From an uncultured Ectothiorhodospiraceae bacterium (GTDB taxonomy: Bacteria; Pseudomonadota; Gammaproteobacteria; UBA6429; Thiohalophilaceae), in contig CAMYJG010000005.1 of the NCBI GenBank assembly GCA_947258695.1, forward strand, positions 1 to 64,000: a stretch of DNA of 64,000 nt. The letters are read 5' to 3'. Of this stretch, positions 6,653 through 11,163 are shown piece by piece (positions within the stretch are counted from its first letter, which is position 1; each line of letters begins with the position of its first letter). Under the pieces are notes generated by a model. It had not been told where the DNA came from. It searched no databases and saw only the letters and a list, made by a program, of their open reading frames with translations. Both the position numbers and the translations under genes were made by a program.

Positions 6653-6678
6653 ACCGCAGAGTCGCAAAGAACGCAAAG
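6653..6678 (+). repeat. solo copy of the 26-bp ACCGCAGAG repeat
   Basis: A 26-bp sequence beginning ACCGCAGAGTCGCAAAG lies in the crp/trpC convergent gap. It is the same length as, and clearly related to, the two inverted copies that bound the GxxExxY element at 9225-9682. It appears to be a solo end or a dispersed member. Confidence 0.75.
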
Positions 6679-7527: not shown

Positions 7528-7561
7528 ACCACAGAGGAGACAAAGGTTCACAGAGAAAAAG
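7528..7561. repeat. ACCACAGAGG-type dispersed sequence between trpD and trpC
   Basis: The sequence reads ACCACAGAGGAGACAAAGG followed by TTCACAGAGAAAAAG. It is similar in style to the ACCGCAGAG repeats and to a degenerate GACTCAGAGAAAAATT at about 14190, but it is a distinct subtype. It occupies the trpD-trpC spacer and creates a spurious upstream GTG start for trpC. Confidence 0.5.
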
Positions 7562-8633: not shown

Positions 8634-9218
8634 TTATTTAGCTAAATCTAAAAAGTTTTTTAGCATGGCATGACCATGCTGGGTCAGTATAGATTCCGGA
8701 TGAAACTGTATACCTTCAATTGGATACTGCTTATGTCGTACTCCCATAATTTCATCCATGATACCGCCTTCTTTTTCAGTCCACGCGGTAATCTCGAGGT
8801 AATCCGGTAAGCTATCATTATCAATCACTAAAGAGTGATAGCGAGTTGCTTCCAATGGGCTATACAGGTTTTTAAAAACACCTTCGTTGTTGTGATGAAC
8901 TTCGGAAACTTTTCCATGCATAATTTCTTTAGCATGAACGATCTTTCCACCAAATGCCTGGCCAATACTTTGATGCCCCAGGCACACGCCTAAAATTGGA
9001 ATTTTTCCAGCAAAGTAACGGATCGCATCAATAGAAATACCGGCTTCATTTGGTGTACAGGGTCCGGGTGATATCACCAGCTGATCCGGCATTAATGCTG
9101 CTATCTCTTTAATTGTAATTTCATCATTACGATAAACCTGTACATCAACCTTAAGCTCACCAAAATATTGCACCAGGTTATAAGTAAAGGAATCATAATT
9201 GTCGATCATTAAAAGCAT
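8634..9218 (-). CDS. trpG: anthranilate synthase component II (glutamine amidotransferase)
   Basis: Class I glutamine amidotransferase domain that supplies ammonia to TrpE. 194 residues. The nucleophile cysteine is in [16 protein letters not shown], the His-Glu pair is in [11 protein letters not shown], and the N-terminal [15 protein letters not shown] is diagnostic. It may also serve p-aminobenzoate synthesis, as in many bacteria. It is separated from trpE by a 458-bp repeat-bounded insert on the same strand, so promoter coupling to trpE may be altered. Confidence 0.96.
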
Positions 9219-9224
9219 TTATTC

Positions 9225-9682
9225 ACCGCAAAGACGCAGAGTGCGCAAAGTTTACAAATTATTCACCAACCGCTTAATTCCATGTTTAAGAAGTTTGGTG
9301 TTAAAATTTATCAATAAGCCTAATTTATTATTTCTAATACGTAAATATGATAACAGTTGAGCATCATGAATTGGCAATAAGCTGTCTACTGATTTAAGCT
9401 CAACCACAACGGTATCTTCAACAATAAAATCTAACCGATAACCCACATCCATTTATCACCCTTATAAACAATATCTAAAGGTGCTTCACGAATATAATTA
9501 ATACCTTGAATAGTCAATTCTCTAGCCAGGCAAGATGAATATGCTGACTCTAATAACCCAGGTCCAAGATACCTATGAACTTCAATCGAAGCTCCAATTA
9601 TTTTCTGTGATATATCATTTTCTAACATTATTAACTCTCCTTGTTAATAAAAAAATCTTAGCGTCCTCTGCGTCTCTGCGGT
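9225..9682. mobile_element. candidate 458-bp element with 26-bp inverted ends carrying a GxxExxY gene
   Basis: The left end (9225-9250) starts ACCGCAAAGACGCAGAG. The right end (9657-9682) is its inverted counterpart, starting ACCGCAGAGACGCAGAG on the minus strand. By hand alignment 22 of 26 positions match. The ends bracket one gene of the GxxExxY/PD-(D/E)XK_3 family, in reading direction with the trp genes. No transposase is present, so movement would be in trans or by recombination. No clear target duplication is visible. Confidence 0.6.
9252..9628 (-). pseudogene. GxxExxY family protein (PD-(D/E)XK-like), frameshifted
   Basis: Two overlapping ORFs together form one GxxExxY protein of about 125 residues. 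The N-terminal part (9431-9628) has IIGASIEVHRYLGPGLLESAY, including the name motif. The C-terminal part (9252-9452) has DVGYRLDFIVEDTVVVELKSV, with the D...ExK nuclease-like core, then LLINFN. Frame is lost near 9451-9453, where IVYKGDK should continue into a Leu codon and DVGYRLD. Loss of one T from a TTG codon explains it. It is either a decayed gene or a sequencing error. The family's function is unproven. Confidence 0.85.
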
Positions 9683-9690
9683 TAATATTA

Positions 9691-11163
9691 TTAATGTACC
9701 TTATCCAGCCCGGCTTCTGCCATGGCAACAGCACGAAATACCGCACGCCCTTTGTTCATGGTTTCATCCCATTCATTTTTTGGTACTGAATCATAAACAA
9801 TACCCGCTCCTGCTTGTATATGCAGTGTTTTATCTTTTATAACCGCGGTCCGAATAGCTATCGCGGTATCCATATTGCCATTCCATGAAAGGTAGCCTAC
9901 CGCGCCAGCATAGACGCCTCGTTTTACCGGTTCCAGTTCGTCAATGATTTCCATTGCTCGAATTTTAGGTGCACCGCTCACCGTTCCCGCCGGGAAAGTG
10001 GCGCGTAACACATCCATCGCGCTTAAGCCTTTTTTCAAATTACCGACAACGTTAGATACGATATGCATGACGTGCGAGTAACGTTCTATCAACATATTTT
10101 CCGTTAACTGCACGCTACCAATTTTTGCAATGCGGCCAACATCATTACGCCCGAGATCAATCAGCATTAAATGCTCTGCCAGTTCTTTTGGATCAGCTAA
10201 CAACTCAAGCTCAAGCAATTTATCTTCGCGTGGTGTTTTACCACGTGGTCGGGTACCAGCAATGGGTCTTACCGTCACTTCGCCATCTTCCAGGCGGGTC
10301 AAAATTTCAGGCGAAGAACCGGCAACATGAAAATCACCCAGGTCTAAATAAAACATATAAGGCGATGGATTCAAGCCACGTAAAGCCCGGTATAAATCTA
10401 ACGGCCTGGATAAAAATGGAATCGACAAGCGTTGCGATAAAACAATTTGCATGGCATCGCCATTGGTTATGTATTCTTTCGCCTTTAATACCGCCGCTTC
10501 AAATTCATTCTGACTAAAGCCAGAGACAAAATCATCTTCTTTAACTTTAACCGATTTTTGTTTTGCCGGATGAACAATATGACTATCAAGTTGGTTAGTT
10601 AACCAGTCTAATCGAACCTGGGCATTTTCATACTCGCCTTGTTCTGCATGAACAATGATATAAAGCTTACCGCTTAAATTATCATGCACTATCAATTCAT
10701 CTGAGACCATTAACAGGATATCTGGTAAACCTAATTCATCCTTGTTCGGACAATCTTTCAGACGTGGTTCAATATACCTGACCGTGTCGTAACCAAAATA
10801 ACCAACCAGGCCGCCATTAAATTTTGGCATAGCCTCTATTTCAGGAACTTTATATTCAGACTGGAATTCTTCAATCCATTTTAATGGATCGTCAACCGTC
10901 ATGGTTTGTTTTAATTTTCCACCCTGCAATATCTTGACTTCATAACCGGAAATGCGAATAACTTTACTCGAGGGTAAGCCGATAATAGAGTAACGCCCCC
11001 ATTTCTCACCACCCTGAACCGATTCAAACAGGTAGGAATAAGGTCCATCAGCCAGCTTAAGAAAGGTACTTAACGGGGTGTCGAGATCAGCCAGCACTTC
11101 CCGCATTAAAGGAATGCGGTTGTAACCTTTTGCGATGTACGCGTCGAATTCTTCTTGATTCAT
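9691..11163 (-). CDS. trpE: anthranilate synthase component I
   Basis: Chorismate to anthranilate, with TrpG. 490 residues. The N-terminal feedback region ([17 protein letters not shown]) carries the tryptophan-binding type element. The C-terminal chorismate-binding domain has [45 protein letters not shown] and [13 protein letters not shown]. The 143-bp upstream region to gph was searched for a Trp-rich leader peptide and none was seen, so attenuation is not supported. Gene order rpe-gph-trpE matches Pseudomonas. Confidence 0.96.

Follow-up and report, generated by a model that had tools for sequence, protein, structure and literature searches.

The gap between trpE and trpG in the window, the whole 64,000-nt stretch of DNA analysed here, is occupied by a cassette in which a single PD-(D/E)XK gene of the GxxExxY family lies between two inverted arms composed of iterated heptamers. 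Arms of this plan accompany GxxExxY genes in many phyla, their sequence type is matched to that of the gene-less arm pairs dispersed in the same genome, and the cassettes turn over at fixed intergenic sites. These results suggest a mobile element, selfish or domesticated, of a kind not previously recognised, and we consider it somewhat probable that the whole represents a nuclease element that carries its own recognition arms and has gene-less dependents. The gene-arm system is apparently widespread in bacteria and undescribed; a search of open-licence PMC papers returned no description of GxxExxY arms or of the repeat. The features of the window that are relevant here are as follows.

6655..6678, plus strand: solo arm of the same type as the cassette arms, CGCAGAG-T-CGCAAAG-AA-CGCAAAG, after a Crp/Fnr-type gene
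7530..7555, plus strand: solo arm of a related type, CACAGAG-GA-GACAAAG-GTT-CACAGAG, in the trpD/trpC gap
8634..9218, minus strand: trpG, the host gene downstream; the occupied site is its upstream junction
9220..9253, plus strand: trpG-side inverted arm, heptamers CGCAAAG-A-CGCAGAG-TG-CGCAAAG at 9227-9250
9252..9452, minus strand: C-terminal part of GxxExxY in a different frame, with the PD-(D/E)XK residues GYRLDF...VVELKS
9431..9628, minus strand: N-terminal part of GxxExxY with the G-x-x-E-x-x-Y motif GPGLLESAY; the frame stops early at 9431
9654..9687, minus strand: trpE-side inverted arm, heptamers CGCAGAG-A-CGCAGAG-GA-CGCTAAG at 9657-9680
9691..11163, minus strand: trpE, the host gene upstream, co-directional

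The cassette takes up the trpE-trpG gap (9219-9690, 472 bp) entirely and has no transposase between its ends. The sequence-only reading had claimed that inverted ends bracket the GxxExxY gene and that a solo end-like copy lies at 6653. The bracketing is real, with inverted arms of 34 nt that are 82% complementary and spaced 400 nt apart, and the solo copy is one of the three matches to the 17-mer end (9225, 9666 and 6653) found in the 64-kb window with up to 3 mismatches, where 0.03 are expected. This match count, together with a survey of arms at 80 genes described below, rules out a chance inverted repeat. With the CACAGAG-type solo arm in the trpD/trpC gap, which the sequence-only reading did not list, there are three traces of such elements in the trp cluster of the window. 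No known RNA family in Rfam matched the region.

The trpG-side arm lies 2 bases off the trpG start codon and shares the stop codon of the C-terminal part of GxxExxY, and it can be seen directly in the sequence that the region of the trpG ribosome-binding site has been replaced by the arm. In relatives with an empty junction, GGAGG precedes trpG; in the window the arm takes its place (9219-9240), and the outward end of the arm reads GCGGTGAATAAATG. The GGTGA within this end is a candidate ribosome-binding site that could serve trpG. Many arms open with TTCACC, which reads GGTGAA outward.

The GxxExxY open reading frame of the window is not intact, as it is frameshifted around 9446-9452. Since the N- and C-terminal parts lie in two frames, the window copy is a pseudogene unless the frameshift is a sequencing error (the assembly has 164 contigs). 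Both halves score above the TIGR04256 cut-off of 35 bits (59.8 and 75.4 bits), and PF13366 was also matched. The family (GxxExxY / PDDEXK_3) is widespread, and its description gives neither a function nor repeats. Two other GxxExxY genes of the same genome are intact (C40, in the thiG/trmB gap, and C30, in the pth/ychF gap), and both have inverted arms on either side, of a sequence type particular to each gene (ACCACAGAGGTCACTGAG... and AGCCACGAAGGACACAAAG..., respectively). Most copies among the relatives have an open frame with the active site intact, and the GxxExxY residues as well as D67, E77, and K79 are invariant across 54 relatives, so that conservation extends to both the motif and the PD-(D/E)XK site. 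The predicted structure of the protein is confident (mean pLDDT of 96). Among solved folds it comes closest to the Cas4 protein SSO0001 and to lambda-type exonucleases, although these matches are weak (best E of 0.001, TM of 0.56), and a search of solved structures by sequence gave no match to the protein. GxxExxY genes are rare on plasmids (8/72,556), which counters plasmid-borne spread.

The association between the arms and the gene was examined by aligning the 300 bp before each gene to the reverse complement of the 300 bp after it, with a local score of at least 18 taken as the threshold. Among 80 GxxExxY genes found in many phyla, 80% reached this score, versus 3.5% of 144 other ORFs of the same loci and 8.5% when partners were swapped, so the proposal that such ends co-occur with GxxExxY genes is borne out.

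The arms are also a genome-wide repeat. The arm end occurs in 23 copies with up to 2 mismatches in the whole genome of the window, mostly as gene-less inverted pairs 50-170 bp apart. The ends had been regarded as the gene's own; they do bracket it, but they are not private to it. Likewise, ACCGCAGAGACGCAGAG, which had been put forward as the end, is an end in this genome but merely its variant of a general iterated-heptamer end. The plan common to all arm types is 3-4 iterated heptamers of the form CRC-NN-AG with spacers of 1-3 nt. The arm ends read ACCRC or AACGC and have no GTAG or CGTC tag. The letters vary among genomes, yet they agree between the two arms of a gene and the dispersed copies.

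Dispersed arms were counted in 58 relatives by pattern searches with two arm patterns, and TIGR04256 was sought in the same genomes. The median was 56 dispersed arms in genomes with the gene versus 1 in genomes without it, with a p of 2.5e-9 that disregards phylogeny because the genomes are related. At least 5 dispersed arms were present in 20/23 carriers versus 2/35 non-carriers. The carriers with few arms (G020, G031, and G035) all belong to one genus, and in two of these (G020 and G031) the arm units at the ychF site end in CG (CACAGCG, CACAACG) and fall outside the counted patterns. Two incomplete genomes, G009 and G018, have 20-22 dispersed arms and no detected GxxExxY gene, which has been lost or is absent from the assembly only.

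Within the genus of the window, the type of the dispersed arms goes with that of the arms on the resident trp-site gene. Where the trp-site gene has ACC arms, the dispersed ACC/ACGC counts are 26/2 (G000) and 45/3 (G003); where it has ACGC arms they are 4/57 (G001), 1/26 (G002), and 1/78 (G006); and in three species without the gene they are 0/0, 0/4, and 1/1. When the arms of the gene were compared with the dispersed arms of its own genome in seven genomes, just 4 of 5040 permutations fit as well. The arms also match better within one cassette (22) than against cassettes of relatives at the same site (about 11), and arm similarity correlates with protein similarity (Mantel rho of 0.37, p=0.001), a correlation to which shared descent contributes. 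An exception is G028, which has 61 dispersed ACGC arms, yet its sole detected gene has ACAC arms.

The main rival to a nuclease element places the arms at the level of RNA. As an intervening sequence, the arms would pair in the polycistronic transcript and RNase III or a similar enzyme would cut the stem, leaving the operon unharmed, as with the 23S rRNA intervening sequence (IVS) that carries S23p; the arms would then match through RNA pairing and the nuclease gene would be cargo. The upstream neighbour is co-directional in 75 of 77 GxxExxY loci, in comparison to 71% of control pairs, and the complementarity of the arms persists while they drift, both of which are consistent with this explanation. 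The Coxiella rRNA IVS offers a precedent: besides its inverted ends it carries tandem heptamers and an ORF, and RNase III cuts it (PMC4990558). However, heptamer variants follow only weakly the same order in both arms of a cassette (28 positive, 19 negative, p=0.002), which is expected of recognition iterons and not of a strict stem; this weak register signal makes strict stem pairing a less likely cause of arm similarity. The explanation also leaves the many gene-less pairs of the gene-matching type, and the frequency of arms in convergent gaps, unaccounted for. We regard it as unlikely, though it is the alternative to be taken most seriously.

The gene-less pairs were compared in 400 kb each from two relatives, G008 and G025, which hold 25 and 22 arm pairs, respectively, against 0 in the shuffle. 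For 12 of the 22 syntenic G008 pairs, G025 has a pair at the corresponding position; 4 of these 12 differ in arm class, with both arms changed. At two places CGAAG-type arms in G008 correspond to CCAAG-type arms in G025, and the CusA-site genes carry those same types. The sample is small, and it suggests in-place replacement or conversion of the gene-less pairs. Some of the remaining places are occupied by other repeat families (GACGAG, TTGAATG, CAGCACT). The arm pairs are intergenic and rarely lie in divergent gaps (3/46). A target-site duplication was sought in this comparison and none was readable, as the intergenic DNA of the compared species is too diverged.

Cassettes recur at a small number of sites, among them trpE|trpG, ychF|pth, and a position preceding a CusA-like gene, and in 94% of bootstrap trees the 12 trp-site proteins group apart from those at the remaining sites. 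The empty trpE|trpG junctions that the sequence-only reading led one to look for in relatives were found; they measure 11-26 bp and occur in the same genus (G005 and G007) as well as in the family. The landing of a cassette inside the trp cluster stands as an occupied site, but not as a fresh, private insertion: a recent insertion confined to this genome is rejected because relatives in the family carry cassettes at the same site, and what the window shows is a broken copy at a location used family-wide. The genome G021 carries a broken copy like the window, and at the trp junction of G019 decayed arm remains are all that is left of a cassette.

On the TrpE/TrpG host tree the filled and empty states need at least 7 changes, which is about equal to the number for shuffled labels. 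The genus forms one clade on this tree with full support (100/100), whereas genus monophyly of the trp-site cassette proteins is rejected (AU p=0.0005). Within the genus the cassette proteins are 55-68% identical and TrpG is 84-93% identical. From the state changes and the diverged, non-monophyletic cassette proteins it follows that cassettes have been lost and regained, or exchanged, at the exact site. An old tandem pair followed by differential loss is a possible alternative that needs more steps. The mobile cassette suggested in the sequence-only reading is supported by the co-occurrence of the arms, the empty sites, the many gains and losses, and the lineages that cross genera, from which we infer mobility. 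Two other arrangements were observed at this junction. In G006 (L018) a gene-less arm pair abuts the GxxExxY cassette upstream of trpG, forming a composite of two elements. The junction of G030 (L210) contains an insertion of another kind, 198 bp long and lacking heptamer arms, so that the trpE|trpG gap accepts other DNA too.

Persistence at the same sites across a family, the rarity on plasmids, and the intergenic position of the arms, seldom in divergent gaps, would also be consistent with a domesticated host regulator, in which the protein binds the dispersed arms and marks or processes gene ends, the flanking arms are autoregulatory, and the role is in chromosome structure or transcript ends. 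A host function fits poorly with a gene that is so often lost (it is absent from 35 of the 58 relatives), with filled and empty states that are scattered over the host tree, with lineages swapped among genera, and with invariant nuclease residues. This explanation appears less likely than the RNA-level one.

A slightly lower probability still is given to an old vertical insertion, that is, a single entry in the ancestor of the family that has since been decaying and immobile, with gene conversion keeping the arms alike. The grouping of the trp-site proteins in the bootstrap trees, the broken copies, and the decayed arm in G019 agree with a single entry. The trp-site proteins of the genus, however, do not form the one clade that their hosts form, and most copies retain an open frame and an intact active site. 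Finally, it is very improbable that GxxExxY genes and heptamer repeats accumulate independently in the same tolerated gaps without a causal link, since, although other repeat families do occupy these gaps, inverted arms flank both sides of the gene far more often than those of other ORFs, the arm type matches per gene and per genome, and dispersed arms are predicted by the presence of the gene.

The nuclease element that we favour would work in the following manner. The cassette would be a minimal element of one PD-(D/E)XK gene between two inverted heptamer-array arms, lodged among host genes and read together with its upstream neighbour. The GxxExxY protein would recognise its own arm type and act on the DNA there, whereby cassettes may come to be copied, or exchanged, at the fixed sites between genes; we infer arm recognition, cutting, and copying by the protein from the patterns described above. 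Gene-less arm pairs, as REPIN- or MITE-like dependents, would spread genome-wide and be kept in step with the arms of the gene, so that every protein lineage would have an arm type, and often a site, to itself. In this scheme, the trpE|trpG site of the window is occupied by a frameshifted copy. Points against this reading are that no insertion with a readable target-site duplication turned up, that the gene is rare on plasmids, that G028, G009, and G018 depart from the gene-arm pattern, and that the fold match is weak.

The closest known parallel is RAYT/REPIN, in which REP-associated tyrosine transposases are accompanied by paired inverted repeats (PMC3116915, PMC2817692, PMC8049555). In both systems repeats flank the gene, gene-less inverted pairs of the same repeat are dispersed between genes, more pairs are present where the gene is present, the genes are rare or absent on plasmids, and persistence is long. 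Unlike RAYT, the GxxExxY enzyme is a PD-(D/E)XK nuclease (PF13366) and not a tyrosine (HUH) transposase, its arms consist of iterated heptamers and lack the GTAG/CGTC tag, and the cassette turns over at fixed sites, has lineages that cross genera, and is found in many phyla. By analogy, the GxxExxY system probably works like RAYT/REPIN but is not a member of it, as both the enzyme and the repeat ends differ.

Other systems share fewer features with the cassette. The 23S rRNA IVS with S23p, for example that of Coxiella burnetii (PMC4990558), is likewise selfish and has a small decaying ORF, inverted ends, and tandem heptamers near one end, whereas the GxxExxY cassette lies between protein genes, encodes a nuclease of another fold, and has many gene-less copies. 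Homing endonuclease genes, including free-standing intergenic ones, are also fixed-site nucleases with mixed filled and empty states and exchange between lineages, but the GxxExxY gene has its own inverted arms and gene-less dependents, and sequence comparison of the protein matched no known homing family. In IS elements and MITEs a coding copy and shorter non-coding copies share inverted ends, as they do here; the GxxExxY cassette differs in the lack of a transposase and in its arrays of iterated heptamers, the letters of which drift in step.

The present analysis links the GxxExxY family, to which no function has so far been assigned, to matched arms. The arms and the gene-less pairs provide a concrete hypothesis, namely a nuclease with its own recognition repeats, as well as substrates with which to test it. 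If this hypothesis is true, it would account for a class of intergenic repeats of the CACAGAG, CGCAGAG, and CACGAAG types in many phyla, and it would mean that gene-repeat partnerships of the REPIN kind arose on more than one occasion with unrelated enzymes.

A broader, and more tentative, proposal is that there is a major unrecognised paired-iteron class, characterized by short inverted arrays of 7-9-mers around one small protein, fast drift of the arm sequence that stays in step between the two arms and with many gene-less copies, and in-place change of type; we consider this somewhat less likely than not to be correct. The one protein would be the GxxExxY nuclease in one branch and, in another, the four-helix protein TIGR02436, which is unrelated to it. 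Such a class, if real, would constitute a new genome-wide molecular drive, with the PD-(D/E)XK nuclease as its engine in the GxxExxY branch. TIGR02436, taken together with the Coxiella IVS, hints at this broader class. The TIGR02436 protein, which is of the S23p type and of another fold, is found in the same architecture, with its own inverted 7-9-mer arrays as arms, and 22 of 28 of its genes across the class reach the score of 18 that 3.5% of ordinary ORFs reach. Its arm units include GACGAGG, TTGAATTT, CAGTTGG, TAGGGAG, and others (loci L260-L268 in G008, G025, and G034, and loci L269-L296).
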